A DNA stretch of 47,669 bases from Armatimonadota bacterium (GCA_020354555.1 CP070648.1:4156246-4203914), one strand, 5' to 3'. Shown: positions 2,796-25,579, counted from the stretch's first letter. Notes: generated from the sequence alone by a model not told the origin. Made by a program: numbers and translations.

Positions 2796-3509
<714 letters not shown>

Positions 3510-4298: not shown

Positions 4299-4318
4299 GG
4301 CTGATCCCTCAACCCGAT

Positions 4319-6854: not shown

Positions 6855-9800
6855 TCATGGAAGCTCTGGGTCGAAGGCCTGGTAATACACGTCGCTGTCC
6901 GCGGCCGCTTCCCCGGCAGGCCCGGTGGGCGCGCCGCGAGTGCTTGTCCAGAACAGCCACACTTGCGCGTACCGCGGGTCCTTCACTGCGTACAGCCCGA
7001 GCTCGTTGGCGCGGTGGTCAACCGGCACCGCGCGCGCCGCGCGTTCGGCGCCGAAGACCAGGGGCGCGGTGAGTCTCGACCCCGACCCGCCCTCGTAGAT
7101 GAAGTGCGCCTGAGCGCTGCCGCCGACCACCGCCAAGACTTCGACGTAAATGCGGTCGGTAGCGTTCAACGCGAACGGGCCCTGTCGTTCGACAATTGTG
7201 TACTGCCGCGGCACCGGGTCGAGCTTGGGGCTGAGCGCGGTCTGGAACAACAGCGCGTTGACGTTCCCCGGTGTGCTCCGCCGGTACACCCTGAAGTAGA
7301 TTTGCGCATTCTCCGTGGCGTAGTCGGCATACTCGCCGTACGCCGTGAAGTTGAAGGCCCACACGCCCTCGGGTATCGCCGTCACATCCGGGGTCACGGC
7401 CTGGGTGTCGAACGGGATCCCGGCGCCGACCGCGAGGTCGACCCCAGCCGCGTCGGGCCCGCGCTGATGGAGCTGTCCCGCGGTGGCCGGCTCGGCCGAC
7501 GCCTCGTCGTGGAAGTAATACGTCAGTGCCTCGCGCAGGCTCAGGTACATGATGTCCGCACCTGCGGTCGGCTGGCCGCCCTGGGTCCAGAACACCCACA
7601 GGCGCGGATCGTAGGGGACCGGTTGCGGGGCGCCGCCGCCGTCGAGGTAGCGATAGGTTTCGACGAATGCGGACGGGTTTGATTCGTCGGCCGGGTCGGT
7701 GGTGAGCCGCAGCAGCTTCGGCGTGTAGTCCGCCGTCACCTCCGCCAGCGGATCGGCGCTGAAGTAGACCGTGCCGAGCGCCGGATCGAACTCGGGGTTG
7801 TACGTTCCGTCGTTGATGCGATAGCGGCCGGTGCCGAGATCCACCGGCGCGCCTGCCAGCCGGACGCCGCCGACGTAGATATTGACTTCCCCGTCGACCG
7901 GCGGGTCCGATATCACCCATTCCTTATGGCGGCTGGCGAACACCGTCCGGCCCGCGCCGGGAGTAAGCGTTTCCGAGAAGCGCGCAAACGGCGCCTGCGC
8001 GAGTGTGCCCGGCTCGTAGCGAGCGCAGTAGATGTCGTAGTTGCCGTGATACTGCGAGGCGCCGGAGAATACGACCCACAGGTAGCCGTCGAAGCCGAAC
8101 GCGCTGGGATGACGCGAGGCTTCCAGGCCTGCGGAGGTGACAAGCGCTTGCCTCGCCCACCCGCTCCACGCGCCGCCGCCCGCGGGGCGGCTGCGGTAGA
8201 GCACCGCCAGCGCGGACGCCTGGGTTGTGCTGTGCTCGCTGAAGACGACGTAGTCGTATTCATTCACGCCGTCATCCAGAGCTTGCAGCACCGGCCGCGG
8301 GCGCAGCCGAAAGACGTCGCTCATGTTGGCCGGGTTGCCGCTGGCCCCGGCGACGTCGGGTAGATCCTGGACCTCGCCGGGTGCCTGCCATGGCGAGGCC
8401 CACAGCAAGCGGTTATCGTAGGTATGCCCGCCGGTGCCGGTCTGCCGCAGCGCCGAGCCGCCCCAGAAAAGCCACTCATTGCCGTCGGCATCGACGCCGT
8501 GGCCGGGCGTGAGGTGGCCCTTGCTGATCCAGCCCGCAGGCACGTCCATGGGGTCCCAAGCAGGCGCCGGATAGCTCACGGCGCCTGCCCACGCGTCGGT
8601 GGGGCGATCCAGCGCATCGTACCACAGCATGTACGGATCGGCCTCGGTCGGCTCCGTGCCGTCGGTTCGATGATTGCTCGACCAGAACACACGCAGCGTA
8701 TCCGGGTCAACCCAGGTGACGCACGGATCCACGTCAACCCCCAGCACCGGATCTCCGTTGTTGTCGTAACCCGTGAGGCGGCGTTCGACGACGCGGACCC
8801 TGACGGGAGAGCCATCGCGAGTGGTGACGCCGAAAGCCGTGGCCACGGCATCGGGCGGTGCGCTGTAGGTGCCCGAGGGCTGGTCGTGCGGGACGACGAG
8901 GTCATCCGCGAGGTTGCCGGGGTCGTCGAGCAGCAGCCATCCCTGGTCGGGGCGCACGGCGCCGACCGGGGTCTTGGCGATAATTGACATGACGCTCGTT
9001 GGGTCAATGTCCCAATAGGTCGGCCGCGATTCCTCCCACGGCGTCGGCTGCAGGCTGGTCAGATCGGCGCGCTCGAGACGCACCGCGGCCAAGCCGGTGA
9101 GCGGATCCACGTCCCTGGGGTCAACCTGAATCGGGTTGAGGTCGAGGTTGCCGAGGTTAAGCAGCGCCGGCATGGGGACGCCCGCGACGGTTCCCGGCGG
9201 CGCCTTGGCGGCGTCCACCGTTTCGGACGCGATCCTGAGCCAGGGTTGGAGCGAGAGGGTCGCCGCAATCTGGAACGGCGCGAAGCCGCCCGGGGCAGGC
9301 ACCTCGACGAGCCGGCCGTCCACGTCGAAGTCGAACTCGTTCTCGAATTTCGTTTCCCCGGGGTCCCACGTCATGTTGCCGTTGAGGTCAACGTAGATCG
9401 CCATCTCGGAGGTCAGCGGGTTCAGATTCGGCGCCTGGTAGATGCCGGGGGAGAGATAGCGCGGTATGTCGCCCCACACCCAGACATTGTCGCTCTGCCC
9501 CGGGCCGAGCGACGCGTGATCGGGGCCGATGTTGATGCGATTCTCGGCCAGGTAGTTCTCGTCGCGGAACTCGTAGCTCGGATACGTGCCGCCCGCCTGG
9601 GCGAGATCCACCTTGCTCCAGCGCACGACGTTGCGGGGATAGGTCGGCCCGGTGCCGGTGATGGACTGCTTGCTGATGTTGACCACGGCGAAGGAGGTGT
9701 TCTGCGTCTGCGTGCCCGGGTTGACGGCGGCGCCGCCGGCGAGATCATATGCCACCGGCGTCACCTCCAGCGGGTTGTGAATCATGAAGTCGAATTCCTG

Positions 9801-12800
9801 GGTGCGCGCGCCGCCGGCGTCGAGGTTCGGCGCCCACAGCGGCCCCCAGTCCTCGCGTCCGGGCGAGCCGCCGCGGTTCTGCTCGATCGAGAGGCGCCAG
9901 TAGTACGGCGTCCAGGGGCGGTTCGGTGGCTCGGTGACGGAGACCGCATTGGGGCTGTACGCATAGCCGCGCGGGGCAAGATGAATCTTGAACGCAGTAA
10001 GCCCGAGGTTCTCCCCGATGTATTCCGGCCGCGGATCGGGGTACGCGGCATCCTCGTACTCGTAGGCCTCCTCCGGGCGCCCGCTGCGGCTGTCGGCGGC
10101 GGTCAAGACGTATTCGATGGCGTATGAGAGCGGCTGGTTCTCGGGCGGCGTGCCCGCGGCGGGATCATTCACCGGGTCGTAGGTGAAGACGACCCGATAG
10201 CGCTTGCCCCACCCGGCGTACACCGTCACCGGCTGAGCGATTGCCTGCTCGCCGGTGCTCGCCGCCATGACCGCCCCGGAGTTGATGGTCGTGCCCGGCT
10301 TGCCGCGCCCGCCGAGGAAGACGTACAGCATATCGCCCCACGCGAATTTCTCGGGATCCCAGGGGTAGAGCGGCTCGGTCACTCCCTGCGTCACCGGGTC
10401 GGTGCGGCTGACGTACACCTCGGGCGGCTCCAGCGGCGGGATCACCTGCACCGTGTCGTTGACCGTCGCGCGGAACGACACCTCGCCGGTTTCCTGTGGC
10501 CACAGCTCACCGATGGCAGGCCACATCACGGTGCCTGTAGCCACGACGTAGTACCCGCCGTTGCTGGCGCTGCCGTCAACGTAGTCGAGTTCCGCCGGCA
10601 ACACGTCGGCGATGACGACATCCTCCGCCGGCACGGCGAGCAGGCCGGCATCATTGCGGAAGCGCAGCGTGTACGTGATCTCCTGGCCGACGTCGGCGAC
10701 TTCTTTGTCCGCCTGCTTGGTGAGAGTCAACACGCTGGGCGTGATGACCGGCGGCGGCACCACAGGCGGCGGCACGCCGAACGCTGCCGCCGGGCCGAAG
10801 GCGTACATGATGCCGTCATGCCCGCCGAGGTAAACCAAGGCGTCTCGTCGCCGCGCGACTTCGGTGACTTCCCCGCCGCTCTCGGAAACCACCCGCGTTG
10901 TCTCCCCCTCCCACAGCCCCGGCGAAGCGGTGAAGGCGGTGGGCTCACTCAGCGCACCGCCGCCGCGCGGGTTGAAGCCGGGCAATCCGTCGTTGGGGTC
11001 AACCCAGACCGCGCGACCGGCCTGATCCACGCAATAGACGCGGCCGCGCGCGAGCGGCGCAGGCTGCGCGACGCGGAGCACCGAGGTCGCGAAGTAGATG
11101 AGCGACGGACCTTCGAGACGGCTCGTGAAGTTGCCGTCGTATGAGAAGTACAGCACTCCGCGGTTGCGTGCGCCGAGGGTGACCCGGCCCCAGACTTCAA
11201 CCCTGAGGTAGTCTTCGGGATCCAGCGTCGCGTCCGCGGCGAGCACGGCCTCGCTCTCGTATTCAATGGATCTCGTGCTATCGTCAATCAGCTCCGCAGG
11301 GAAGCTCAGAATCAGCGATCCGGTCGCGTCGCTCGGCGTGCAGTGGAAGACCTTGAAGTAGAGCCACGCCTGGTCGCCCATCGGCTGGAGATCGGCCCGC
11401 GCCCAGAAGTTCATGGTGTAGGTTCCGCGCGGCAGCACCGACGGCATACCCGACTCCGACGCCTGCGGGTGGGTGCGGAACTCCTGATCGAACTTCTCGT
11501 CGGGCAAGGTGACCTGCGCCGCCGCGGGGTTGTAGAACGCGAGGGTCATCTGCCCTGCGGGCTCGTCGCCGTCGCGGTCTCCGGCGCGCAGCGTGCTCAG
11601 GTGCCGCGGCCGCGGCGTTTGGGGCGGATCATCGGTCACGATCTCGTTAACGAAGTACAACAGCACCGGCGCCGCAATCGCCGCCGACGACTGTATCTCA
11701 CCTGCGGCGGCGAACGGCCACACCCCGGCCGCCGGCGTGCCGTTTGGATTCAGCGCGTACATGAAGCCGTCGAGCGAACCGATATACACCGTACCGTCGG
11801 GGCCGACGGCGGGGGTCGCGGTGACACGCCCACCGGTCGCAACTGCCCACTGGAGCTGGCCCTCGATCTGGTTCGGCGCCGTGAGCACGGGCTGCACGCA
11901 GTAGACGTTTCCGTCGTTGGCGCCGAAGTAGATGTGCTCTCGATCCGCGTCAAGCGCCGGCGATGACTCGATGGAGCCCAGCGCGGGGTCGCCCGATACC
12001 GGGAAGCGCCACAGGATGCCCCCGTCATTGCCGTCGAGCGCATAGAGGCGCCCGTTCATCGAGCCGACGTAGACTTTACCCGAACTGCTGTAGGCAGGTG
12101 ACGAGCGAATCTCATCGGCGAGGTCGCCCTGGCGCAGCGCCCGCGCCCACCGGCGGCTGCCGTCCACGGCTTCCACCGCGTGGATGAAGCCGCCGTGGGT
12201 GCCGAAGTATACGACGTCGTCGCCGCTGATGACGGGGGACGAGCTGATGGCGCCGAGCGAAGTCTGGCTCAGCCCCGGCGTAATAAGTTGGGAATCGGAC
12301 CCGCCCTGGGTATCGTTGCCCTCGAGCAGCAACTCCCAGCCGCCGGTGCCGCTGCCGGTTGAGGTCACCTGGCGTATCATCAGCTCGACGAAGATGTACT
12401 CGCCCGCGACGAAATGCGCCTCATGGATGCTCGGCGTCTCGATGTGCGTCCACACGCGCTGGCCGGCGGGGAGCAGCAACTGCCGGGTGTCCTGGGTCCA
12501 GCCGAGCAGCTCCTCCTCGAGCACCAGCGACGGGCCGCCGGGGTCAATCGTCACTTTGCTCATGCGGTACGTAATGAACCCCGCGGCTTGCTGCGTGTTG
12601 CTCGCGTCGGCGCGCAGGGCGAGGTCGAGCACCCACTCGCCCGCGTTGAGCGTGCGCTCCTGCGCGCTGTCGTTGATGTGGAACAGCCAGCCCGCCTGCG
12701 TCAGCGCCGCCGGCGGGGTGTTGACGACCGCCGCGTTGGTCGTCCGCGGGATGAACTGAACGTAGCGCCCGCCGGCTTCGGTCGCGGTGCGCGCAATGGT

Positions 12801-14054
12801 TGCGGGATTGGGGTCGGTGCCGCTGCCCGGGAAGGGGTAGAGCGGCGCGGTATCGGTCGGGAAGTCCGCCGGGAGGTCCGGGGACAGGTAGCCGCTGCGG
12901 AAATACGCGATCTGGTTGACCGCCGGGTAGGTCCACTTGACCGTACCATTGGGGTTGAACGCATAGAGGCGGCCCAGGTCGCGGCCGGTCCCCTCGTAGC
13001 TGCCGATGTAGATGCTGCCGTCATCCCCAACGGCAGGTGAACTGCGGAACCACGCGTCGGGCACCGCGGAGCTCCACAGCACATTGCCCGTGGATGCATC
13101 GAACGCCCATACCGAGCCGTCGTCCGCACCGGCGTAGACCGCGGGCACCTGGATCGGCGTCTCGACGCGGCTCAGCGCCCGGCCCTCCACCACGAGCACC
13201 GCGCTGCCCGCCTCCACGGAAACGCCGATGGCGATGCCGTCGGTGGGCTGGAGCAGCGCATCCTGAGCCATCCGGTGCACGTATTCGATACGGCGCAGCG
13301 CGCCGTTGGGCGTCTGGGGGATGGGGATCGTCACCGGATCGAGGCCGGGCACTGCGGTGCGCGTGTCGGGCGTGGCATGGGCGAAGCGATAGATCGTGAA
13401 GTTGATGTTGGTCGCTGCGGGGACGTCGGTGATCCAGAAATCGAAGGTCCACAGCCCGGCAGGGATGCGCATCTTCGCCTGGTAGGTCCCGTCGGTCTGC
13501 TTGACGAATTCCTGGCGGCTGTTCGGATCCTGATTACGGTAGAGCAGGCTGTTGAGCGTATCGCCGCTGGCGCCGGCGAACTGCATCGCCGTGCTCGTTT
13601 CGAAGAAGACCTCGGTCGGCGCCGCCAGGATCGGCACGCCGTACGCGTCGTCATCCGGGAACTCAGAGCGCAGCACGAGCGGATCGGTCGGTCCGGGCGG
13701 AACCGCGCCGCGTCCGGTCCACGCGTTGTAATGGAAGTACCAGACCTTCTTGGCGCCCGGCACGTCCTCATCCACCTCGGAGGTTGCTGCGGAAGACCAC
13801 ATGGCACCCTGCGGCCCGTGCGGGACGTGGTCGGCCTCGTAGGGCAGGATGGCGTCGCCGCCCTGCCACCAGCGCGTTTCGGCCACGGCCGGGCCGGACT
13901 CCCGCGCATTCCCGCTGTGTGCGGCGTCGCGATGGAACATCGGCCATTCGGTGCTCGCCAGGCCCGCCCCCCACACGGGGCGCGACGCGACACCGAAGGC
14001 GACGAACGCCGCCACCGCCGCCACTCGTACCCACCTGTATCTGGACGTGCTCAC
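6855..14054 (-). CDS. Giant exported beta-propeller protein (2399 residues)
   Basis: Starts at GTG 14054 with GGAGGA upstream, 23 bases after the preceding giant gene. Residues 1-30 form a signal peptide. PQQ-like propeller blades are seen near 307, 349, 616, 662, 709, 757 and 1075 (for example YVGSMNGRLYALDG and YIGSLDGFMYALNP). A DUF11-type repeat (about 1106-1200, TLTKQADKEVADVGQEITYT) follows. A calcium-loop-like DLNGNMTWDPGE lies near 1556. After a long beta-rich region a second propeller of WVFW-type repeats ends the protein (GYLWVVFSG, PRLWVFWTQ, VWLFWTSTR). A module of about 105-125 residues recurs at 198-300, 471-595, 875-990 and 2229-2336. There is no LPXTG or PEP-CTERM signal. It may be a pilus-linked or surface protein; exact role unknown. 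Confidence 0.85.
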   Translation of the reverse strand: MSTSRYRWVRVAAVAAFVAFGVASRPVWGAGLASTEWPMFHRDAAHSGNARESGPAVAETRWWQGGDAILPYEADHVPHGPQGAMWSSAATSEVDEDVPGAKKVWYFHYNAWTGRGAVPPGPTDPLVLRSEFPDDDAYGVPILAAPTEVFFETSTAMQFAGASGDTLNSLLYRNQDPNSRQEFVKQTDGTYQAKMRIPAGLWTFDFWITDVPAATNINFTIYRFAHATPDTRTAVPGLDPVTIPIPQTPNGALRRIEYVHRMAQDALLQPTDGIAIGVSVEAGSAVLVVEGRALSRVETPIQVPAVYAGADDGSVWAFDASTGNVLWSSAVPDAWFRSSPAVGDDGSIYIGSYEGTGRDLGRLYAFNPNGTVKWTYPAVNQIAYFRSGYLSPDLPADFPTDTAPLYPFPGSGTDPNPATIARTATEAGGRYVQFIPRTTNAAVVNTPPAALTQAGWLFHINDSAQERTLNAGEWVLDLALRADASNTQQAAGFITYRMSKVTIDPGGPSLVLEEELLGWTQDTRQLLLPAGQRVWTHIETPSIHEAHFVAGEYIFVELMIRQVTSTGSGTGGWELLLEGNDTQGGSDSQLITPGLSQTSLGAISSSPVISGDDVVYFGTHGGFIHAVEAVDGSRRWARALRQGDLADEIRSSPAYSSSGKVYVGSMNGRLYALDGNDGGILWRFPVSGDPALGSIESSPALDADREHIYFGANDGNVYCVQPVLTAPNQIEGQLQWAVATGGRVTATPAVGPDGTVYIGSLDGFMYALNPNGTPAAGVWPFAAAGEIQSSAAIAAPVLLYFVNEIVTDDPPQTPRPRHLSTLRAGDRDGDEPAGQMTLAFYNPAAAQVTLPDEKFDQEFRTHPQASESGMPSVLPRGTYTMNFWARADLQPMGDQAWLYFKVFHCTPSDATGSLILSFPAELIDDSTRSIEYESEAVLAADATLDPEDYLRVEVWGRVTLGARNRGVLYFSYDGNFTSRLEGPSLIYFATSVLRVAQPAPLARGRVYCVDQAGRAVWVDPNDGLPGFNPRGGGALSEPTAFTASPGLWEGETTRVVSESGGEVTEVARRRDALVYLGGHDGIMYAFGPAAAFGVPPPVVPPPVITPSVLTLTKQADKEVADVGQEITYTLRFRNDAGLLAVPAEDVVIADVLPAELDYVDGSASNGGYYVVATGTVMWPAIGELWPQETGEVSFRATVNDTVQVIPPLEPPEVYVSRTDPVTQGVTEPLYPWDPEKFAWGDMLYVFLGGRGKPGTTINSGAVMAASTGEQAIAQPVTVYAGWGKRYRVVFTYDPVNDPAAGTPPENQPLSYAIEYVLTAADSRSGRPEEAYEYEDAAYPDPRPEYIGENLGLTAFKIHLAPRGYAYSPNAVSVTEPPNRPWTPYYWRLSIEQNRGGSPGREDWGPLWAPNLDAGGARTQEFDFMIHNPLEVTPVAYDLAGGAAVNPGTQTQNTSFAVVNISKQSITGTGPTYPRNVVRWSKVDLAQAGGTYPSYEFRDENYLAENRINIGPDHASLGPGQSDNVWVWGDIPRYLSPGIYQAPNLNPLTSEMAIYVDLNGNMTWDPGETKFENEFDFDVDGRLVEVPAPGGFAPFQIAATLSLQPWLRIASETVDAAKAPPGTVAGVPMPALLNLGNLDLNPIQVDPRDVDPLTGLAAVRLERADLTSLQPTPWEESRPTYWDIDPTSVMSIIAKTPVGAVRPDQGWLLLDDPGNLADDLVVPHDQPSGTYSAPPDAVATAFGVTTRDGSPVRVRVVERRLTGYDNNGDPVLGVDVDPCVTWVDPDTLRVFWSSNHRTDGTEPTEADPYMLWYDALDRPTDAWAGAVSYPAPAWDPMDVPAGWISKGHLTPGHGVDADGNEWLFWGGSALRQTGTGGHTYDNRLLWASPWQAPGEVQDLPDVAGASGNPANMSDVFRLRPRPVLQALDDGVNEYDYVVFSEHSTTQASALAVLYRSRPAGGGAWSGWARQALVTSAGLEASRHPSAFGFDGYLWVVFSGASQYHGNYDIYCARYEPGTLAQAPFARFSETLTPGAGRTVFASRHKEWVISDPPVDGEVNIYVGGVRLAGAPVDLGTGRYRINDGTYNPEFDPALGTVYFSADPLAEVTADYTPKLLRLTTDPADESNPSAFVETYRYLDGGGAPQPVPYDPRLWVFWTQGGQPTAGADIMYLSLREALTYYFHDEASAEPATAGQLHQRGPDAAGVDLAVGAGIPFDTQAVTPDVTAIPEGVWAFNFTAYGEYADYATENAQIYFRVYRRSTPGNVNALLFQTALSPKLDPVPRQYTIVERQGPFALNATDRIYVEVLAVVGGSAQAHFIYEGGSGSRLTAPLVFGAERAARAVPVDHRANELGLYAVKDPRYAQVWLFWTSTRGAPTGPAGEAAADSDVYYQAFDPELP

Positions 14055-14077
14055 GATTGCGTCATCCTCCGCCGGCC

Positions 14078-17000
14078 CTAACGCCGATCCACGGCGCGCG
14101 GCTGGCGCAGCGGCCCGGCGCCGCCGCGCAGGGCCGGGTACTCAGACCTGCCCGGATCGGGCACGATGAAATGACTCCACATGTACGGCTGCCAGTCCCC
14201 GAGTTCCTCATCCCAACTGTCTACAATGCGCTGGCCCAGCGGCTGCGACGGGTCAACCTCGAAGACCTCGCTCGTGACGGGGGCCATCACATCGAGCGGG
14301 CCCGTGCTGAGGTAGGGGTCCGGGTAGCCATTGACGATGAGACACCTGCCGTCGCGTTGCCACGTGGCGAACACGGGAGCGAAGGGCACCTCGGCCGCCG
14401 CGGCTCCGCGCACCGCCGTCGCCTGGACGTAGCGCCGGATATTCTGGAACGCCGCCGCGCGCAGCGCATCCCATTCCGCCGGGGTGAAGCCGGTGCGCGG
14501 TTCGCTGATCAGCGGCGGATAGATCCCGCTCGCGGCCGGATCGCCGAACTCGCCGACCCAGTTGACCAAGGCCATGGCGAGACCCAGGATTTGAAGCCCC
14601 TCGTAATCGCCGCCGACTATCTCCTCCTCGTAGGTCGTGAGGAAGTCGCCGGGACGCTCGAGCCCCGGATCATGCAACCACGGTGCGACGCCGCGCATCT
14701 CGAACACTGGCGTCAGATAGTAGTCGGTCGCCGCGTCGTTCCACGTCGCGCTGTCAATCAGCTTGACTCCGACATCGTCCACAACCATGGTGCGCAGCAG
14801 CGGCAGGCCGGTGGCCTCATCCTGTTGGACGACCTGGTCGGCCTGTCGGATGCCGAAGAAGTCGCGCTCGGACTGCTCGGCGTCGGCCGCGGTCCACGGG
14901 CTCGAGCGCGGACGGAAGACGTTGATGCCCTCCGGGTTGCCCACGCCATCGAGACGCGGCAGCGCCGTGCTTGTGCTTACCCGGCCGGCGGCATCATAGG
15001 TGACGCCGATCTCGACCAGGCGCGTATAGCGATCCCCGCCCAACGGGTCATCGGGGCTATTGCCCACAGCACACATGATGTTGGCGCTGAGGAACGGGTA
15101 TGTCGCGTCCACCATCGCCGCCGCGCCGTCCACGCCGACGAAGCGATCGGCCGTGACGAACTGAGCTTGGGCGCTCGTCGTCCCGCCGGCCGCCGTGGGC
15201 CATGCCGTCAGCGTGGGGCTGGCGAGCACCCGCACGATATCCATGTACGGCGTCGCCGTCGCGACGTCCGTGACTTCCGGCCGATACCTGCCGTTGAGCA
15301 GCGGGCGCACCACTTCGAGCACGCGGTAGTTGCCCGCGTCGGCGATGAGCGTGCTGACCCAGTCCACCACGACGTCGTCGGTGGGCTGGATGATGCCGCG
15401 CGGGTCAGCGAAATCCGCGCCGGATGCCGGCGACTCGGGGCGGTAGTAGTAGCGATGCGCGTCGGTCGGCGCAAGCAGGCGCGCTTGCTCCTCGTTCATG
15501 CCGCCGAGATCCGCCTGCTCGCCGCTCGGATACCTCCAGACCACATCGCCGCCGGCATCGAGCTCGACGACGCAGCTCGCCCCAGTGTCAACAACGAGCA
15601 GATTGCCGTTCGGCAGCGCTCGCACGCGCTGCGGCCTTTCCACCGGCTCGAATCTCCGCTCCGGATAGGAGTCGCTGACGGGGATGCCCGCCGCGCCGGT
15701 GGCACGACTCGGATCAAGGTACGACACGGATTCCTGCGACGTGGCGCTGCGCCCCGCCGGATCGGCTGCCAGCAACCGATGATTGTCCGCGATGATCGTC
15801 TCGGGGGTGCCGAGCCCCACGACCCCGCCGAAGGACCCCAGAGTCGTTGACCACACGACACCGCGTTCGGTGACCGCGAGGCTGCACAGTTGGGCGGAGC
15901 CGACGCCGGTCACCAACACTTTCACGTATTCCGGTTCGGACGGATGCGCCCACAGCGGATCGTCGACCGTCGGATCCTCCGGCACCGCGCGGAAGCCGAT
16001 CAGCAAGTAGCGCTCCAGCGCGTGGTCGTACACAACGACCATCAGCATCCCGTTGGTCACCACGGGCGGACCGACGAATTGCCACCCGTCGGGTGCGAGG
16101 TACAGCCACTTCACCAGCGGTGTGACCTCCATCACGGTGTCCACCAGCACGCCGCCGCTGAAGTAACGCACCCGCACCTGCTGCGGGAGGTAGCGGTCAT
16201 CTGTCACGTCGCCCGGCGTGCCCATATCGCTCCACACCGGACAGGCCAGGCTGCCGAACACCCCACTGCCGAGGCGGATGATGCTGTTCTGGAAGTCCAC
16301 GGTCCAGTTCATCGTCGCGCCCGCGACCTGGGGCACGGCGTAGCGCGGGCTATTGTAGGCAGGATCCGTGGGATCGGTCCTGGTGGATATCCATACGGCG
16401 GCGCCGGTTCGGTCCGCGACGACAACCTGGTTCGGGTCGGCGCTGAACGGCCCTGGATTGACGCCGTTGTTGCGCGGCGCGATGGCGTCTATCGGCGCAG
16501 CGAACACGGGGTCGGCGGTGCCGGGGTTGACAAGCTCCGGTGACGCCTTGAGTTCCAGCGCGTAGAGCATGCCGGACGGGCCCTCGGGAAGGCTTTCGTT
16601 GCGCTGGTCCTCTTCGTTGCGGAAGAACTCATAGTTGCCGGCAGCGAACAGAGTCTCCTCCGCGTAGGCCGGAGTGAAGGAGAAGCTCGAGAAGTAAGTG
16701 CCGTTAACGTCTTCCGGCACCTGGCCGCGATACTTGTCGCCGACGAACGTCCACTCCGGCCTTCCCGCGCGGTCAAGGTGCAGCGAGTAGCAGGCCACGC
16801 GCCCTTCGCTCGACGGCGTGGGGTAGGCGTTGACGGCGTCGGTGCCGACGTAGATGTTGTTCTCGAACACGCACGGCACGGCATAGCCCGCCTCGCTGAC
16901 GTAGCCGCCGAGCGATACCGGGAAGCCCGGGTGCAGCGGCTGCGAGAGAGACCGCGAGGTGCCGGAGGTGTCGCGGTAGCGGACGTGAATCTGGTCGAAG

Positions 17001-19201
17001 CCCAGCGGGTACTGCCCCTGGCCGAACAGCGACCAGGAGGTAAACACGACGCGCATGTGCCCGCCGACGGTGGTGCGAACGTAGTTGAGCGGCCGGTTGG
17101 GATCGTCGCCGATGTGAGGCGGCACCTGCACCCCGGTCCCCGCGGGATCGCCCACCCACACCGTCACCGATTGGTTGGCCGCGGTATCGGGCTGCGATGG
17201 ATCCACGAGCCAGGTTCGGTCCCAGCCAGGCGCCGGGAAACGCACCATCAGCGGGGTGACCCACAGCCTGCCGGTGGCGGACGGCCCCGGGCGCGGCAGG
17301 CTGTTGCCCGTAATCACCGCCGCCGGTGCGGCCTCGGTGCGCCGCAGCACTTCGTCCCACGCCCCGGTCATGACCATAGCCGGCGGGTTGGTGAAGCTTG
17401 CCGCGCGGCCGCCCTCCCCCATCTTCACGCTCGCCGCAGGGGGGTCAAGGAAGCGTTCGTCGGGCGTAACCGGCCCCGACGCATCGTAGATCAAGAGATG
17501 CGCGTCGCGGTTGGGCGCGTCCAGGGTCCCACTGTCCGTCGTGAGCAGGGCAAAGAACTGGTCTATCGCCACCGGGCCGGAGTTGACTAGGCCCAGGTCA
17601 TCTTCCGGGCGCGCGTGGTCGTAGCGCTTGATCGTCGCCGACCACACGGGATCGGTCTGGATACCGTCAAGCGGATCCGCGAGGAAGGCGTGCAGTGAGG
17701 AGTCCAGGTTATCCTCGGTGCGCACGGCCACCGCGACGACTCTCCGCGGTCCGGTGCCGTCGTACGTCGTGTTGACGGCGGGGGAGCCGACGACCTGGCG
17801 AGGCAGTTCCTCGGGCGTCGGGCGCAGGGGATCGGCTGCGCTGGGCACGCGCGCCGGCGGAGCCGGCACCGCATCCTGATCCGCCATGTCCTGCCAGGGC
17901 ACGATCAGGCTCCACAGCAAGTCCTGGCTCGATCCGGCGACGTAGTCGGGCTCTCCCTCATCGCTCCAGTAGTCGAGGTCTCGGTCGGCGAACGGGTCGG
18001 TATCCCATACGGCGAGAGCGCCGCTGTACGATCCGGCAAAAGCGAGGCCGCGACCGACCGCTGCGGCGCCGGCAAGCGGGCCTTCGAGGATCGTGAGGTC
18101 CTGCCACGTAATCAGCGGCGGCCACGCGACCTCCTCGTTGTACTCCCCGCGGGACCGGATGCGCCCGTGAGTGCCCGACCAGTCCATCCACCACTGGATC
18201 ATGTTGTAGGCGAACTTGATGTCGGGCAGCGCCCACTGGGGCAACTCGGTGGCGGCCAGCGCCGCGCCGCCGCTGAGGGCGGCGTACCAGTCGCTGATGC
18301 CGGCGGCGACGCCGCACGCGGCGGCCACGATGCAGCCGTCGCCGTAGTAGCCTGCGGCGATGACAGGGGTCCTGGCAATCGTGCCTCCGCCGGCGTCGTA
18401 CAGTTCCCCGACCACTTCCTGAAGCGGGGTGAAGGCGGCGATGCCGTTATTCGGAGGGAAGGGATTGTTGACGCCGTTCGTGATGCCGTCGAGGGGGCTC
18501 ATGGGCGTGTTGGTCAGATCGCCCACGGAGCCGTAGATGTATTGCTGGCCCAGGAGTTCGACTTCGTCCTCGCTGAGCCGGTACCGGCCTCTCAGCAGCG
18601 GGTGGGTGAAGTCAACGCTGGTCTTGGGCGCCCCGACGGTGCGGTCGCGCAGGGCGAACTGCAGCGGGGGCTCGAGGAAGAAGCTCCCGAGCTGCGGGTC
18701 GTCACCCGGATTCGGGTGATCCGGCTGATTGTCTATCCACAGCAGGCCGCCCTGGTCAACCCACCTCTCCAGGATGCGCTGCTGGTGAATGGAAAGGTCA
18801 ACCGTGCCGCCGACGATGGGCAGCAACAGGACATCGAAGTTCTGGATTAGCGGCATGTCAATGCCGCCCATGCCGACGGCCCAATAGGCGGCCGCGCTCT
18901 TGTCCAAGCCCGGCGTAGCGATCGGATTGATGATTTCCCACCCCGGAGGGCGCGGCGGGTTAAACTCGAATGCCTGCCCGCCGGGGAGCGGGACATAGAC
19001 CGAATCGCACCCGAGCAGGTACATGGCATACTGACTTGGCGGCGCGGCGCCAAAGGTGAGGATGCCCGCGCGGATGACGCGGCGTTCCTCGGCATAGCTG
19101 TGCCAGGTGCGCCCGGAGTAGAGCGGCTCCACCGCACCCAGGATGCAGGCTGCGGCCGCCGCCACCGCCAGAACGGATGTGACTCGTCGCGATAGCATCA
19201 T
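14078..19201 (-). CDS. Giant exported protein, amidotransferase-like N-domain plus propeller repeats (1707 residues)
   Basis: Starts ATG 19201 without a clear Shine-Dalgarno. Signal peptide at 1-23. Residues about 42-330 resemble class I glutamine amidotransferase-like folds, with FDVLLLPIVGG and RILERWVDQGGLLWIDNQ; no catalytic triad is evident. Next come propeller-like repeats (GRGLAFAGSYSGALAVWD) and, at 678-743, a module bounded by SVTVWVGDP and IHVRYR that also occurs in the PilW-like pilin. NHL-like blades lie near 1200 and 1285 (GNLLVVDTGASCVVELD, LIADAGNYRVLEVV). The C-terminal part has nothing I recognise. It follows the minor-pilin genes, where PilY1 is encoded elsewhere, so a tip or surface role is my inference. 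Confidence 0.82.
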   Translation of the reverse strand: MMLSRRVTSVLAVAAAAACILGAVEPLYSGRTWHSYAEERRVIRAGILTFGAAPPSQYAMYLLGCDSVYVPLPGGQAFEFNPPRPPGWEIINPIATPGLDKSAAAYWAVGMGGIDMPLIQNFDVLLLPIVGGTVDLSIHQQRILERWVDQGGLLWIDNQPDHPNPGDDPQLGSFFLEPPLQFALRDRTVGAPKTSVDFTHPLLRGRYRLSEDEVELLGQQYIYGSVGDLTNTPMSPLDGITNGVNNPFPPNNGIAAFTPLQEVVGELYDAGGGTIARTPVIAAGYYGDGCIVAAACGVAAGISDWYAALSGGAALAATELPQWALPDIKFAYNMIQWWMDWSGTHGRIRSRGEYNEEVAWPPLITWQDLTILEGPLAGAAAVGRGLAFAGSYSGALAVWDTDPFADRDLDYWSDEGEPDYVAGSSQDLLWSLIVPWQDMADQDAVPAPPARVPSAADPLRPTPEELPRQVVGSPAVNTTYDGTGPRRVVAVAVRTEDNLDSSLHAFLADPLDGIQTDPVWSATIKRYDHARPEDDLGLVNSGPVAIDQFFALLTTDSGTLDAPNRDAHLLIYDASGPVTPDERFLDPPAASVKMGEGGRAASFTNPPAMVMTGAWDEVLRRTEAAPAAVITGNSLPRPGPSATGRLWVTPLMVRFPAPGWDRTWLVDPSQPDTAANQSVTVWVGDPAGTGVQVPPHIGDDPNRPLNYVRTTVGGHMRVVFTSWSLFGQGQYPLGFDQIHVRYRDTSGTSRSLSQPLHPGFPVSLGGYVSEAGYAVPCVFENNIYVGTDAVNAYPTPSSEGRVACYSLHLDRAGRPEWTFVGDKYRGQVPEDVNGTYFSSFSFTPAYAEETLFAAGNYEFFRNEEDQRNESLPEGPSGMLYALELKASPELVNPGTADPVFAAPIDAIAPRNNGVNPGPFSADPNQVVVADRTGAAVWISTRTDPTDPAYNSPRYAVPQVAGATMNWTVDFQNSIIRLGSGVFGSLACPVWSDMGTPGDVTDDRYLPQQVRVRYFSGGVLVDTVMEVTPLVKWLYLAPDGWQFVGPPVVTNGMLMVVVYDHALERYLLIGFRAVPEDPTVDDPLWAHPSEPEYVKVLVTGVGSAQLCSLAVTERGVVWSTTLGSFGGVVGLGTPETIIADNHRLLAADPAGRSATSQESVSYLDPSRATGAAGIPVSDSYPERRFEPVERPQRVRALPNGNLLVVDTGASCVVELDAGGDVVWRYPSGEQADLGGMNEEQARLLAPTDAHRYYYRPESPASGADFADPRGIIQPTDDVVVDWVSTLIADAGNYRVLEVVRPLLNGRYRPEVTDVATATPYMDIVRVLASPTLTAWPTAAGGTTSAQAQFVTADRFVGVDGAAAMVDATYPFLSANIMCAVGNSPDDPLGGDRYTRLVEIGVTYDAAGRVSTSTALPRLDGVGNPEGINVFRPRSSPWTAADAEQSERDFFGIRQADQVVQQDEATGLPLLRTMVVDDVGVKLIDSATWNDAATDYYLTPVFEMRGVAPWLHDPGLERPGDFLTTYEEEIVGGDYEGLQILGLAMALVNWVGEFGDPAASGIYPPLISEPRTGFTPAEWDALRAAAFQNIRRYVQATAVRGAAAAEVPFAPVFATWQRDGRCLIVNGYPDPYLSTGPLDVMAPVTSEVFEVDPSQPLGQRIVDSWDEELGDWQPYMWSHFIVPDPGRSEYPALRGGAGPLRQPRAVDRR

Positions 19202-19322: not shown

Positions 19323-21788
19323 CTAGATCCGCTCGCCCCATGCGATCATCGCGGGGCTGACCGGGAGCTTCGGCAAGCGCGGTGGCCCACCCGGCTCGCC
19401 GGGGACGAGCGCCCCGCGCAACGATGGATCGTAGAGATAGCGCAGGGTAAACTGGCTGATGCCGAGGTCGGGATCATAATTCGGGCTCGTCGGCAACCAG
19501 CTTTCATTGGACCCGCGCCACTTCGCAGTCCAGTCCATGACATCGCCCACGGGCGCGGTGCGGTTCTCGGAAATGGCGCCGCGGACCGTGATGCGGACGT
19601 CGAGGGGCTCGCCGGGCGCGGGATCGCCGAGGGGATCGCTCGTCGGGTCCGGCGGCGGCGGATTAAGGAACGTGCCCGGGATGACGAACCAACTGCCGTG
19701 CTCCGCGAACATCGCGGCGTCTATCTCGACGTCCACGCGCGCCCGAATGTCGCGCACCCAGTAGTACCTGCTGGTGTCGGGGGTGACCTGTAAGCGGACG
19801 ACGTGCGGCTCGCCGATGGCCGTGGGCGCGAAGGTGATGCGCTTGTCGGTTCCCGAAACCGGATCGAGGCTCGGAATGGACTCCCAGCTCGGATAGATGG
19901 CGTTGGTTTCGTTGTTGTAGGCGGCCAGCGGCGGCGGCAGGAACAGCCAGTACTTGGTCGAGTAAGCCAGCGTTCCGTCATCGTACACGCCGGGCGGGTC
20001 GGCCAGGTTCCAGTCGTAGGCGACGCCGTTGATGAGCACCTGCATGATGGCCGCGCCGGGATGTCCGGTAACCGGGCTGCCGGGCTGCCCAGTGTGCTTG
20101 AGGTAGATCTGCACCGGATCGAAGCTTGCCGTCGTGACGGTGCAGTCCAACGGCTCGCCCGGACGGATCTCGTGGTACGCCGTGCCCTCCGGCCCCACCG
20201 AGGCGGTCGCCTGCGTCTCGATCAGGGCGGTGGTGTTGAAGACAACGGAGTCCCGCGCCAGCAGCGCGATCTTGCTGTCACTGCCGGCCTGGGTCGCCGC
20301 GGCAGTGTCGGGATCGAGCACCTGCGCGGTCACCGGGCTGAGCAGGCTGCCGTTGACGAAGATGTTGCCGCCAGAGACGACGGTCACGTGGTAGAACCGG
20401 TTGCTGTCCACCGCGGCCGCGAGGTTGTCTATGTCGTACGGGAGTTGGTCATAGTAGGCATCCGGGCTCCCGACCGCGGGCGGCAGCGTGCCGCTCACCG
20501 CGACATCGCCGGCGGCATAGATCACGCCGTTCTGCGGATATGGCAGGTACAGATCCTGTACCCCAGTCGGCGACCCGTTGGGGTAACGCCAGACCTCCCA
20601 CGGATCGTCGGTGCTCGTCCACGTCAACTGGACGGCGGGGACGCCGAGGCCGCCCGCCGACACGGGATGGAAGGTAATCCTGACGAGGTCCGGGGTGTAG
20701 CTGGTAGCGGTATTCCAGTTGGGATAGAGCAGCGGATCGGGCGTCGTCCATTCCGTCCGCATCTGCTCGTAGTCATGCTCGTAGAGGATGTGGCCGGGGT
20801 TGTCCACGTAGATGCCCTTGCCCCAGCCGAACCAGCCCGAGTTGACCTGCTCGCCGAGGTAGATATCCTGCCCGTCGGTCCACACGCCTGAATCGCGCGC
20901 CAGAGCGAGATACCGCTCGGGGTTCAACGCCGGAGGATCGAGATAGCGCACCCAGCGCGGATCGCCCGCGGCGTCGGTCTGCTGCCGCCAGTCACGGTAG
21001 TAGCTGCCCAGGGCGGTGAACGCGGGATCCTCGCTCGGCAGGACGACTCGCGGCACGCCCCCGTCAATGGACACCAGCACTTCGGTGGGGTCGCCATCCC
21101 ACTCCAGCGTGTCCTTGTTCCACCGCGCAGCCACGTCGTGAGAGATGTCGCCAGCCACCGCGATACTATCGCCACGACTCGACGACAGGTTGACCTGCAC
21201 GTCGCCGTGCCAGGTGAGGTCAGCATTGACGCGGATGGCCCCGTCGAGCACCGTCTTGTACCTGTGGGCGGGGTAGATCTCCGGCGGGTTCTCGTAGAGG
21301 TACATACGCACTGCCGCGCCGAGCAACGCGGGCAGGGGGTTCTTTTCGCCATTGGTGACGAACCGAACGTAATCCGTGATGAGAATCGGCTTGTAGGCGA
21401 CCATGCGGCGCTGCAGGAACGGGTTGCCCTTGAGCTGCGCCAGGCTCTCGAGCTTGATGAAGCGGGAGTACGGGTCGCCCGCCTCGGGTTCATAGGTCAC
21501 GGTCAGGCGGAATTCGCCTTCGCCGTAGTCGAAGGTGCCCGGGTTGGGATCGGGGCGCCAGTCGGCCCCCTCCGGGCCGCTCACCAGATTATGATCGGCA
21601 TACCGCAGACCCGCCTCGGCGATTTCCTGAAGCGCGATCACGAACGACTGGCGCTGCGCCTGGCGCAGCTGCGACGCAATGACCGCCAGGAACAGCGCGG
21701 CGAGCACCGCCACGATAAGCATGACTAGGACGGCGAGTATCAGCGCCTGCCCGGATTCCTCATTCAGTTTTCGCATTCGCAACAGCAT
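19323..21788 (-). CDS. Very large PilX/GspK-like minor pilin (821 residues)
   Basis: The N-terminus ESG|QALILAVLVMLIVAVLA is a type III leader for PilD (cleavage after G13) followed by the pilin helix. Position +5 is Leu, not Glu, as in some PilX/GspK-class pilins. Known members have about 150-330 residues, so this one is exceptionally long. The middle part carries NGVIYAAGDVAVSGTL, VTVVSGGNIFVNGSLL and SKIALLARDSVVF. This series looks like turns of a beta-helix and is familiar from PilX-type proteins of other large-genome bacteria. A Pro-rich linker and more beta-rich sequence follow. M5 is an alternative start. It lies between the PilW-like and the first giant gene, so it is probably part of the pilus tip complex. 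Confidence 0.82.
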   Translation of the reverse strand: MLLRMRKLNEESGQALILAVLVMLIVAVLAALFLAVIASQLRQAQRQSFVIALQEIAEAGLRYADHNLVSGPEGADWRPDPNPGTFDYGEGEFRLTVTYEPEAGDPYSRFIKLESLAQLKGNPFLQRRMVAYKPILITDYVRFVTNGEKNPLPALLGAAVRMYLYENPPEIYPAHRYKTVLDGAIRVNADLTWHGDVQVNLSSSRGDSIAVAGDISHDVAARWNKDTLEWDGDPTEVLVSIDGGVPRVVLPSEDPAFTALGSYYRDWRQQTDAAGDPRWVRYLDPPALNPERYLALARDSGVWTDGQDIYLGEQVNSGWFGWGKGIYVDNPGHILYEHDYEQMRTEWTTPDPLLYPNWNTATSYTPDLVRITFHPVSAGGLGVPAVQLTWTSTDDPWEVWRYPNGSPTGVQDLYLPYPQNGVIYAAGDVAVSGTLPPAVGSPDAYYDQLPYDIDNLAAAVDSNRFYHVTVVSGGNIFVNGSLLSPVTAQVLDPDTAAATQAGSDSKIALLARDSVVFNTTALIETQATASVGPEGTAYHEIRPGEPLDCTVTTASFDPVQIYLKHTGQPGSPVTGHPGAAIMQVLINGVAYDWNLADPPGVYDDGTLAYSTKYWLFLPPPLAAYNNETNAIYPSWESIPSLDPVSGTDKRITFAPTAIGEPHVVRLQVTPDTSRYYWVRDIRARVDVEIDAAMFAEHGSWFVIPGTFLNPPPPDPTSDPLGDPAPGEPLDVRITVRGAISENRTAPVGDVMDWTAKWRGSNESWLPTSPNYDPDLGISQFTLRYLYDPSLRGALVPGEPGGPPRLPKLPVSPAMIAWGERI

Positions 21789-21955
21789 CGCTCTTTCGAT
21801 TCGACCACGGATTCACGCGGAAACGCGCGGATTCCTGTATTATCTTGTTTGGTCGCGCAGCCATCCTTGGCCGCGCGTCTCCGGGCAGCCCAGACGCCTG
21901 CCCTACCTTGCATGATTCCGATCGGCGTCAATCCGCGTCCATCCGCGGCGGCATC
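21789..21955. repeat. Intergenic stretch with degenerate CGCGGAT repeats
   Basis: Holds ACCACGGATTCACGCGG, ACGCGCGGATTC, AATCCGCGTCCATCCGCGG and TTATCGCGG. It is the same family of short repeats as in 19202-19322. No gene seen. Confidence 0.4.
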
Positions 21956-23455
21956 TTATCGCGGGACGTTTTTCAGTTTCACCTTCGCGACCAGGCTCAC
22001 ATCCTGGCGCGACGCCTCGGGTTTCCGCGCGGCGCGGTCGCGCTTGCTCACCGTGATGCCGATATTGATGACGGCCTTGGTGCCGTACGTCGCCACCACG
22101 AGCTGGCCCTCAGGGTTATTCCGATAGCGGTAGCGGACGTGTATCAGATCGCCGTCCGCAGGTCGCTCCGGGCCCGCCGGGTTGTCATCGAAGATCAGCT
22201 GCGTCCCCCTGACGGCAAACCGGTTCCTGCCCATGGTATTGGACCCTACCGGGTTCGGCGGCGGTTCGACCTGCTTGTAATACGCTACCTCTTGCGTCAC
22301 CGGGTCTTCGACCCAGACGGTGACCGAGCCGCGTACGACCGCCGGCGAGTATGCCACGATTGATGAAACCGGCTCCAGATCATAGATGTACATGCTGGCG
22401 GCGGCTGTGATGAGATCGACCGCCGGGAAATCGAACATCACCTCGCCGCGGTCGTAATCAATGCCGAAGGCGAACTCCGCCTGGTCGGGATCGTTCACGT
22501 CGCGGAGCGGGTAAGCCCCCGTGTTGTATATTGGCGTGCCGTCGGCGACGCGCACCACCCACACGTCGCCGGTCACCGCGTCAACCCCGGTCTGGTACGT
22601 CAGAACCCGCGGGTCCCCCACGTACACCTTGACCTCCCCCATCATGGCGAAGTCCGACCCGGCGGGGTTCCACTGCGCGCAGTGCGCCCACAGGGGGTAG
22701 CGCGAACGATAGCGGCTGTAGTCGCGCGGGAAGGCGCCGGTCCACGGCACGAGCGCCTCGTCGGTCAAGCGGGTGGGCGAGAACCCGACCGAGGGGATAT
22801 CGTAATCCGCGTTGTTCGGCGTCAGCCCGACAGCGCGCTCGCGATAGAAGTCGTAGGCTGCCCGCGGCGCCGGCGGACCAGCGCCGAACTGGAGCACTGC
22901 CTCGAGCCAGGGATAGCCGGGCTGCGCGGTGGGCCACGTCTCACCGACGTACGTGTGCCCGTCGGGGTACCAGAAGACCGCGCGCGTCAGCGCGGCGGCG
23001 GAATCGTTCCAGTCGTCGTCGCGCGCGGCGGGATCCTCGATCTCCGTTCGCGCGAGATAGTACGGGTTCACGGGGTCGGCGTCAGTCTGGTAGAACGGCG
23101 CGTATGCGTACGCCGGATCGCGCAGGGCGCGCCAGTAGCGGATGGCGATGGCCTCCGGCTCGATGGGCGCCGCGCCCTGCGGCGCGCTACGCGAAGGGAG
23201 GAAGGCGACGAACATCCCGCCGAGGGGGGGATCGAAGACGTACATCGCCTCGGCCAACTCGCGCGTCATGGCGTCTATGGCCAACCGCGCGGCTGACTGC
23301 GCGTCGGCGCGGGCGACGCTCTTCTCCATGAACGCCAGGCCGGTGAGAATCGGATAGCCGACGAGCGCGAGCAGTAGGATGACAAGCCCGATGGTGACCA
23401 GGATCTCGATCAGGGTGAAACCCGATATCGTGCGTTTGTCTCGCATCGTCAGCAT
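21956..23455 (-). CDS. PilW/GspJ-like minor pilin with large C-terminal domains (499 residues)
   Basis: The leader TISG|FTLIEILVTIGLVILLLALV has the PilD cleavage Gly at 12 and Glu at +5. The helix continues with SVARADAQSAARLAIDAMTRELAEAM, as in PilW/GspJ. Usual family length is 200-350. The extra part is beta-rich. It includes FGIDYDRGEVMFDF and, at 377-443, a module bounded by SVTVWVEDP and IHVRYR that is shared with the 1707-residue protein. The protein ends in a basic, strand-like stretch. Position between PilV-like and PilX-like genes fits the V-W-X order of minor-pilin clusters. Confidence 0.85.
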   Translation of the reverse strand: MLTMRDKRTISGFTLIEILVTIGLVILLLALVGYPILTGLAFMEKSVARADAQSAARLAIDAMTRELAEAMYVFDPPLGGMFVAFLPSRSAPQGAAPIEPEAIAIRYWRALRDPAYAYAPFYQTDADPVNPYYLARTEIEDPAARDDDWNDSAAALTRAVFWYPDGHTYVGETWPTAQPGYPWLEAVLQFGAGPPAPRAAYDFYRERAVGLTPNNADYDIPSVGFSPTRLTDEALVPWTGAFPRDYSRYRSRYPLWAHCAQWNPAGSDFAMMGEVKVYVGDPRVLTYQTGVDAVTGDVWVVRVADGTPIYNTGAYPLRDVNDPDQAEFAFGIDYDRGEVMFDFPAVDLITAAASMYIYDLEPVSSIVAYSPAVVRGSVTVWVEDPVTQEVAYYKQVEPPPNPVGSNTMGRNRFAVRGTQLIFDDNPAGPERPADGDLIHVRYRYRNNPEGQLVVATYGTKAVINIGITVSKRDRAARKPEASRQDVSLVAKVKLKNVPR

Positions 23456-23482
23456 CTATCGCTCATCCACTCTCCGCGAATC

Positions 23483-23588
23483 CTCTCCCGCTCAGGGAGA
23501 CGATTCAGGTGAGAGTACGCAGCCTTGCTCTTCACCCTCACCCGGCCCGTCTGCGCCGGGCCGGCCTCTCTCTGGCAGGGAGAGGCGT
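23483..23588 (+). repeat. Palindromic intergenic repeat, copy 1
   Basis: On the plus strand it has CTCTCCCGCTCAGGGAGA, later CACCCTCACCC, then CCTCTCTCTGGCAGGGAGAGGCGT. The same series of blocks, with a different middle, occurs on the minus strand at 37469-37402 in the valS leader. It also holds the hairpin CGGCCC...GGGCCG. It lies between the PilW-like and PilV-like genes. Confidence 0.6.
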
Positions 23589-23635
23589 CTACAGACGTAG
23601 GCCGGCCCCGTGCTACCCGGTCACACCGTACACTC

Positions 23636-25579
23636 CTACTGCCGCCGCAGGAAGGTCTCGACGATTACCTGCCGCCAGCTCTCCGGCGAAGCCTGCCCGG
23701 CAACTGCGTCAGTGCGGCCGCGCCCGGCCCACAGCACGCGCGCGCGCATGCTCGCGCCCTGGACACGGATATCGCCCCAGGCGGGAGTCTCGGCGAGACG
23801 CACCAACCCGCGCCCGTTATCGAGCACGACCTGGTGCAGCTCGCCGGAGATCAGGACGGGATCGCCGTTGTCATACATATAGTAGTTCGCGACGACGCTC
23901 TTCGCCACCTCGGAGGGGCCGAACTCGAGGTCGCGCGGGTTGGCCGGCTCGTCCCACACCGCAAAGCGATACCCGGGCTGCGCGGTAGCGCCGACGACGA
24001 TGCTGTACTGCGCAGCGGCCTTCATGGGCTGGATGCTCCAGTCCAGATCGCTGCGGTAGTAGACTCTGTAAGTTCCGCCCGCCGCCGGCTCGGGAGGTAC
24101 GCCGTTGCCGGAGAGGGTGATCAATCCGCTCTGGAAGTTCACCTCGTAGTCGGAACTCGCCGGCGCGCCGTCCACGTAATCGAACCGCGACCCGTCCTCG
24201 GTGTCAATCACGATCACCATATCGTCGTCGCCCGGGATGATGCGGTCGCGACCGGGTTGGCGCGGAGGATTGATGTAACCCGCGCTCTTCACCGGCGCGA
24301 CGACGAGCTGGATCTCCAGGCGGTCATCCGGCACCCGCTCCTCGACGAGGATCTGCCAGTCGCGCACCTTGTAGTCCACGTTGACGGTGCGACCGGCGTC
24401 GCCGGGATCGAACAGAATGGATGCGGACGGCTCGGCGATGGGATTCGACGTGTCACCGATGAGCCTGAAGTAGCCCGGCCCGTTGAGCGGCCAGTCGTCG
24501 TTGTCCATGATGAAGGCCTGATGCACGCGCTCGCTGAGCGGGATGATGCCGGCGAAGTTGACGGGCGGCGCGCCGAGCTCGGGCCACAGGGTCTTGGGGC
24601 TGGCGACCGTGTCCTCGCCCGCGGCGACATCGATCAGCGTGACGACGTCCCACATCTCGTAGCGCCGCTCGGCGCGCGCCCCAGGGCCGGTGTCGATAAG
24701 ATATGTGAACTCGACGCGGAAGCGGCGCATATAGTCGGGCACGAGGTCGAAGCTGATCGTCCCGGCATCGTAGTCCACGTAGTATCGCCCCCAGTCCTTC
24801 GGGGCCGGATCGGTGGCGTCAATCAGGAAGTTGACATTGTCAACGCGCTCGTACTCGGTGGTGTAGATAAAGAGAGCATCGTAGCCCGGGGGATTCGCCA
24901 CGTGCTCCGCGTCGCCGTTGCCATCGTAGTCGTAGTTGTGCGCGTAGAGATGCTCCAGGGGGCCGAAGCGCAGGCGGCAGAGGGGGACGCGGATGCCGAC
25001 GGCGTTGGGATCTACGCCGTTGGGGTCGGGCACGCTCTCGGTGACGTCGCCGACCGGCAGCACTTCGCCGATGATGGTGCGCGGGCGATACGCGCTGTCG
25101 GGCTGCCAGTTCGGATGGGGGCGGTCGTAGACACCGTTTGAGTTGAGATCCGTGTACGGCTCACCCGTATCCCATACGCCATTATTATTCGCGTCACTGA
25201 ACGGCTCACCAGCATTGGGCGTCAGGCCGTTCGGGTCGTAGTCGACATTGTAGCTGAGGCTGAGGGTGGGCGGGACGGTGCTGTCGTCCACGACGTCAAC
25301 TTGCGCCCAGACGATGGCTTCCGGGAGGCTGCCGGCGGCGAGCCGCCAGCGCTGGATTTCCTGGTCGGCGAGGCGCGCGGCGAGGGATTCTATCCGCGCG
25401 CGCTCGATAGCCGCGAACCCGGAGGGGAACACGCGCAGGGCGACATAGGCCCCGATCAGCAGGAGCACCAGGGCGACGAGCACCTCGACGAGCGTGAAGC
25501 CGCTGCGGCGGTGGGGCCGTCGTTGTCGCGCAATCCCAGCTTCGTCCAGTCTTCTGTTGCCGGCAGAGTAGCCCAACAT
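23636..25579 (-). CDS. PilV/GspI-like minor pilin with large C-terminal domains (647 residues)
   Basis: I take ATG at 25579; the frame is open to 25660 but that extension has no pilin features. The leader RRSG|FTLVEVLVALVLLLIGAYV has its Gly at 27 and Glu at +5. The helix runs into ESLAARLADQEIQRWR. Residues 129-152 hold DANNNGVWD and DLNSNGVYD, a pair of calcium-loop-like repeats. Downstream are several copies of a strand motif, YxVDxxxGxIxF followed by VxVxY, such as YYVDYDAGTISFDL and YEVNFQSGLITLS. Typical PilV is under 220 residues. Next to PilW- and PilX-like genes it is a probable priming or tip pilin. Confidence 0.83.
   Translation of the reverse strand: MLGYSAGNRRLDEAGIARQRRPHRRSGFTLVEVLVALVLLLIGAYVALRVFPSGFAAIERARIESLAARLADQEIQRWRLAAGSLPEAIVWAQVDVVDDSTVPPTLSLSYNVDYDPNGLTPNAGEPFSDANNNGVWDTGEPYTDLNSNGVYDRPHPNWQPDSAYRPRTIIGEVLPVGDVTESVPDPNGVDPNAVGIRVPLCRLRFGPLEHLYAHNYDYDGNGDAEHVANPPGYDALFIYTTEYERVDNVNFLIDATDPAPKDWGRYYVDYDAGTISFDLVPDYMRRFRVEFTYLIDTGPGARAERRYEMWDVVTLIDVAAGEDTVASPKTLWPELGAPPVNFAGIIPLSERVHQAFIMDNDDWPLNGPGYFRLIGDTSNPIAEPSASILFDPGDAGRTVNVDYKVRDWQILVEERVPDDRLEIQLVVAPVKSAGYINPPRQPGRDRIIPGDDDMVIVIDTEDGSRFDYVDGAPASSDYEVNFQSGLITLSGNGVPPEPAAGGTYRVYYRSDLDWSIQPMKAAAQYSIVVGATAQPGYRFAVWDEPANPRDLEFGPSEVAKSVVANYYMYDNGDPVLISGELHQVVLDNGRGLVRLAETPAWGDIRVQGASMRARVLWAGRGRTDAVAGQASPESWRQVIVETFLRRQ

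Follow-up and report, generated by a model that had tools for sequence, protein, structure and literature searches.

Enlarged minor pilins and a giant propeller protein suggest a distinct type IVa-like pilus tip in Armatimonadota

Which protein caps the minor pilins of a type IV pilus whose gene cluster has no recognizable PilY1? In diderms, PilY1 is regarded as the non-pilin protein that defines the type IVa pilus tip. The question is raised by a stretch of 47,669 nucleotides from an Armatimonadota bacterium (GCA_020354555.1, CP070648.1:4156246-4203914; hereafter the window), in which genes for PilV-, PilW- and PilX-like prepilins stand in a row; downstream of them on that strand come genes for two very large exported proteins, giant1 and giant2. 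In known systems fimU-pilV-pilW-pilX-pilY1 are encoded together, and the minor pilins carry PilY1 as their cap (PMC13190605, PMC10191384). An initial reading of the DNA by itself (the sequence-only reading) had proposed that both giants fill the tip or adhesin role. We find that the V-W-X-giant1 module is phylum-wide, and it is likely to encode an Armatimonadota-specific form of type IVa-like pilus tip, in which a V-W-X complex is capped by giant1 as the counterpart of PilY1 and giant2 is a variable second exported protein. The open reading frames and prepilin signatures agree with the row of genes first described, and the coordinates and lengths were reproduced:

23636..25579, minus strand: PilV-like minor pilin, 647 residues from an internal ATG, Glu5 present (N_methyl 1e-7)
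21956..23455, minus strand: PilW-like minor pilin, 499 residues, Glu5 present (N_methyl 0.01)
19323..21788, minus strand: PilX/GspK-like minor pilin, 821 residues, without Glu5, modular, prepilin start G/QALIL
14078..19201, minus strand: giant1, exported protein of 1707 residues, proposed tip cap
18182..18973, minus strand: DUF4159-like domain of giant1 (GATase-like, Rossmann-type), N-terminal, about residues 77-340
17960..17986, minus strand: acidic loop of giant1, residues 406-414, DRDLDYWSD, a degenerate Dx(D/N)xDGxxD
14081..15814, minus strand: C-terminal NHL-type propeller region of giant1, matching the NHL propellers TRIM2, Brat, PknD and Pizza
6855..14054, minus strand: giant2, exported modular protein of 2399 residues

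The distribution of the module was followed by profile search in 291 Armatimonadota genomes, 194 of them of good quality. The PilX-like protein is found in 270 genomes (189 of the good-quality ones) and giant1 in 236 (171 of the good-quality ones). Both matches are listed for 115 genomes. In 113 of these, giant1 is found directly downstream of PilX and on its strand; the ends of the two matches are a median of 114 bp apart (from 63 to 1488 bp). In the two exceptions PilX and giant1 are on different contigs, at contig edges, and one genome with giant1 but without a PilX match is a contig end; no giant1 without PilX was seen where the contig permitted the test. Nearly all of the loci, which come from many families, have the order V-W-X-giant1; because this order recurs across the phylum, it is not due to chance. 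The observation of the sequence-only reading was confirmed and its interpretation was supported in part; of the two situations that would speak against it, giants apart from minor pilins and a PilY1 elsewhere, neither was seen.

Two minor points concern the same loci. A gene of 216-223 residues lies between PilX and giant1 in the G030 group (L105, L112, L126, L140, L104 and L038:11795-12445). Records labelled Propionibacteriaceae and Bacillota (L116, DIVW01000042; L096, DAOVEW010000226) carry an Armatimonadota-type PilX-like gene and are probably misassigned bins.

The three minor pilins are unusually large. Median lengths in relatives are 610 residues for PilV-like (54 loci), 629 for PilW-like (56 loci) and 953 for PilX-like proteins. 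Typical minor pilins are between a half and a quarter as long. In the window the PilV-like reading frame opens at 25660, the boundary at 25579 being an internal ATG, and its N-terminus matches TIGR02523 (1e-4). Glu5 is kept in 109 of 110 PilV- and PilW-like proteins, and Glu is at position +5 in 0 of 61 PilX-like proteins, in which the G/Q cleavage site is invariant (G13/Q14). A pilin without Glu5 is GspK/PilX, which by rule is placed at the filament tip, so the PilX-like protein would be the tip-most pilin. Its gene closes the minor-pilin row, with the Glu5-bearing I- and J-type pilins encoded before it. From the gene order, the Glu5 pattern and the size, it appears most likely that the V-W-X proteins occupy the tip and that PilX carries giant1. 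The PilV- and PilW-like proteins and the tip-most PilX-like protein would form a priming complex at the end of the filament, and giant1, exported by the Sec pathway, would sit on PilX as a non-pilin cap with its DUF4159-like domain outermost. There it could do the work of PilY1 in priming, adhesion and sensing. Giant2 would be a second, more variable exported protein, probably an adhesin associated with the tip or the cell surface.

What kind of protein is giant1? Both giants start with a Sec-type signal peptide (judged by eye), and giant1 varies between 1044 and 2517 residues among relatives. Its N-terminal region is a conserved block in A1/A3 and contains no vWFA or DUF4114; in their place is the DUF4159-like domain, which is found in 4 of 13 giant1 relatives (best 1.2e-7) and covers residues 99-286 in the homologue of G030. 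The protein also has PQQ/BamB-like blades and the NHL-like region, and thus two propeller regions. Its profile, compared with the sequences of solved structures, returned only generic NHL/BamB propellers. A fold search with a model of residues 33-1232 gave quinoprotein dehydrogenases and BamB as top matches; because the model is modest (predicted local distance difference test, pLDDT, 64), these matches say "propeller" and little more. The PilY1 structure 3HX6 was not among the 50 matches listed. The best-conserved stretch of giant1 includes an acidic loop with the consensus D-x-D-G-D-G-N-x-D-D-G, which contains Dx(D/N)xDGxxD, the calcium motif 1 of PilY1 (PMC13190605). At this one homologous loop the motif is strict in 42 of 56 giant1 relatives and generic in 5; in shuffled giants it occurs 0.0025 times per protein. 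The loop presumably comes after the blade strands in giant1 and before them in PF05567, the PilY1 family, a difference that would speak against homology of the two.

Giant1 could be a true, extremely diverged PilY1 homologue, since the two agree in gene position, in export, in having a propeller after an N-terminal Rossmann-type domain, and in the consensus of the calcium motif. Against this, PF05567 has no match in either giant or elsewhere in the window's own genome, in keeping with the earlier statement that neither giant resembles PilY1 in sequence. Across the 291 genomes PF05567 exceeded the cut-off in none; because no control genome matched, the sensitivity of the scan is unproven and the negative depends on how well the model performs in general. 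The profile and fold searches lead to BamB, quinoprotein dehydrogenases and NHL proteins, with no 3HX6 among the matches listed; homology to PilY1 is judged unlikely. The arrangement as a whole resembles the PilY1/PilC tip with FimU-PilV-PilW-PilX in gene order, in a large exported protein after PilX and in the calcium-motif loop of most giant1 relatives. It differs in the missing PF05567, in the DUF4159-like N-terminus as opposed to vWFA or DUF4114 (a region variable in PilY1 itself), in the length and two propeller regions of giant1, in the second giant that usually follows, and in the enlarged minor pilins. By the tests done giant1 is outside the PilY1 family, a very diverged homologue being the less probable case, and its role as the functional counterpart of PilY1 is supported. 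The further proposal that giant1 is an unrelated propeller that has replaced PilY1 phylum-wide, with a Rossmann-type domain of its own and a calcium loop that arose by convergence, seated on minor pilins that have grown two- to four-fold, would mean an independently evolved tip; we hold it tentatively, at a little under an even chance.

Several points weigh against giant1 as a tip cap. Gene order shows co-inheritance, not contact. Confidence in the giant1 model is modest, and the loop of the window's own giant1, DRDLDYWSD, is without the glycine of the motif. At L089 and L114 (Hebobacteria-type) and at L110 pil machinery genes come immediately after a large PilX and the giants are missing; no giant1 match was found in the nine f3/f4 family genomes of the window's own class. 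Judged by these genomes, V-W-X can do without giant1. The Hebobacteria-type and CS1-C002 loci (L089, L114, L110) offer a natural giant-less comparison inside the phylum. For the tip or adhesin role first proposed for both giants, the evidence is strong in the case of giant1, which occupies the PilY1 slot phylum-wide, and weaker for giant2; the Hebobacteria-type loci, judged by their genes, would have large V-W-X proteins without giant1.

These results suggest that Armatimonadota made their pilus tip with a giant protein other than PilY1. If this is true, the PilY1 slot has been filled by another giant, together with enlarged PilV, PilW and PilX, in one phylum, and it would separate the required parts of a tip (Glu5 pattern, capping, calcium loop) from the replaceable ones. 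The PilX-like protein and giant1 are two families without names with which tip assembly can be tested. Pili have been noted in the phylum, in Fimbriimonas (PMC4072686); the literature searched contained no earlier description of Armatimonadota pilus tips or of this module.

Is the cassette part of a pilus at all? It could instead be a secretion pseudopilus in which V-W-X, as in type II secretion, form the tip of a piston and the giants are the substrates it exports: the giants look like secreted proteins, and PilH-I-J-K sets are shared with type II systems, where the tip recognizes substrates (PMC10191384). The genes around the cassette, on which the sequence-only reading was silent for PilB, PilT, PilC, PilD, PilM and the secretin, bear on this. 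They are transcribed on the minus strand in the order PilB, PilT, PilC, PilD, two ordinary prepilins, PilV-, PilW- and PilX-like, giant1, giant2, PilM, genes in the PilN/O/P position, an STN-domain protein and the secretin:

30923..32674, minus strand: PilB extension ATPase with MshEN and T2SSE (T2SSE 4e-141, MshEN 2e-23)
29640..30824, minus strand: PilT retraction ATPase (T2SSE 2e-49; identity with relatives 71-92%)
28374..29621, minus strand: PilC platform protein (T2SSF 3e-67)
27491..28363, minus strand: PilD prepilin peptidase (A24_N_bact 1.6e-33, Peptidase_A24 4e-14)
26488..27273, minus strand: prepilin 1, 261 residues, major-pilin-like (N_methyl 2.5e-6)
25703..26392, minus strand: prepilin 2, 229 residues (N_methyl 3e-6)
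5217..6638, minus strand: PilM (PilM_2 3e-50)
2796..5212, minus strand: PilN/PilO/PilP-like genes, named by position, order conserved in G001
1818..2645, minus strand: STN-domain protein, secretin-associated (STN 8e-10)
2..1612, minus strand: PilQ secretin, running past the window end (Secretin 2e-32)

With PilB, PilT, PilC, PilD, PilM and the secretin all found, the cluster is a complete type IVa-like pilus set; the genes in the PilN/PilO/PilP position gave no Pfam match above the cut-off. The presence of the retraction ATPase PilT and of PilM-type genes in the same cluster argues against a pseudopilus, and so do other GspF-type loci in the genome, one of which adjoins three small prepilins (149-236 residues). 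A pseudopilus is thus improbable.

Slightly less probable still is that the giants are ordinary surface propeller proteins, outer-membrane adhesins or enzymes, which share the operon and act separately. Propellers serve many functions, PQQ-like proteins are frequent in these genomes, and giant2 is variable. On the other side, giant1 is in essence a single-copy gene that keeps to the slot directly after PilX across dozens of families. Giant2 is held less tightly. When the window's giant2 was used as a query over relatives, generic PQQ repeats swamped the matches, so the search was informative for the nearest genome only. In 48 loci giant1 is complete and the DNA continues past it. Of these, 41 have a next gene on the same strand within 600 bp; most of these genes are once more very large, and known giant2 proteins are matched by 29 of them (1e-5 or better). 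From these counts giant2 is usual but not universal; roughly one locus in four lacks it or has a divergent form. The earlier description of both giants as largely propeller repeats holds for giant1, with its PQQ- and NHL-type blades, and for giant2 in part, where PQQ-like blades are broken up by jelly-roll-like repeats and followed by DUF11 and other modules:

10785..13139, minus strand: PQQ/BamB-type propeller blades of giant2, interrupted, residues 306-1090 (PQQ_2 1e-21, ACSF4 propeller 2e-32, internal repeats)
13152..13466, minus strand: jelly-roll-like repeat copy 1, residues 197-301
11073..11441, minus strand: jelly-roll-like repeat copy 2, residues 872-994
7032..7382, minus strand: jelly-roll-like repeat copy 3, residues 2225-2341
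10449..10730, minus strand: DUF11 domain, residues 1109-1202 (9e-11)

Counterparts of giant2 reach about 4878 residues (L033:4288-18924, with many PQQ-like blades) and 5132 residues (G006:C267).

The body of the PilX-like protein is a further matter. Thirteen members of the family gave no Pfam match, PilX/GspK families included, and the profile had no match among the sequences of solved structures. The predicted structure (pLDDT 81, predicted template-modelling score 0.87) has a long alpha1 helix and then a large beta-rich body. ComZ of Thermus thermophilus, which binds DNA and is proposed to be at the pilus tip (PMC6561018), was named as a candidate ahead of the fold search and came out as the top solved match (6qvi, E 4e-3, probability 0.20, 566 columns, low template-modelling score); phage tail fibres and carbohydrate-binding-module jelly rolls are listed as well. 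The match is suggestive and not significant; as ComZ is a tip pilin, it speaks for a tip position of the PilX-like protein, and its weakness counts on the other side. Both are oversized pilins with a large beta-rich insertion (a beta-solenoid in ComZ) and proposed tip pilins, whereas the PilX-like proteins mostly have 800-1100 residues against 554 in ComZ and are followed by giant propeller genes. That the PilX-like protein is a ComZ-type DNA receptor of what would chiefly be a DNA-uptake pilus, with the giants as accessories, is very improbable, since the nearest solved fold is matched only weakly and carbohydrate-binding-module folds match too.

Two other systems are comparable. The modular pilins PilB/PilC of Streptococcus sanguinis also have large adhesive modules grafted on minor pilins, but this is a monoderm in which PilABC replace PilHIJK (PMC10191384), and the Armatimonadota pilins have no Pfam-recognizable module. 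The Verru_Chthon cassette (TIGR02599 and relatives) is likewise a prepilin cassette, and the PilW-like N-terminus weakly matches its protein C (1e-4); the match spans the N-terminal helix only and is far below the model cut-off.

The PilV-like protein (reading frame 23636-25660, frame residues 156-179) has the DxNxNGxxD acidic loops DANNNGVWD and DLNSNGVYD, and giant2 has a similar loop, DLNGNMTWD, at residue 1556; by their sequence these resemble dockerin/EF-hand calcium loops. Modules common to giant2 and PilV/PilW were considered and rejected: the PilV and PilW profiles have no match in giant2, and the proteins are alike only in the acidic DxNxNG loops.

The host genome is one contig of 4.88 Mb, and the named relatives that carry the same genes are Armatimonadota. 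About 46 N_methyl matches are present in this genome, and the prepilins encoded outside the cluster are mostly of about 150-360 residues. More type IV filament or secretion loci, some with small prepilins, lie at G000:C1:3813681-3817793, 1182514-1185795, 4490439-4491374 and 1780241-1785284. At the other end of the window (45857-47668), a protein of repeated carboxypeptidase-regulatory-like domains is open at the window edge.

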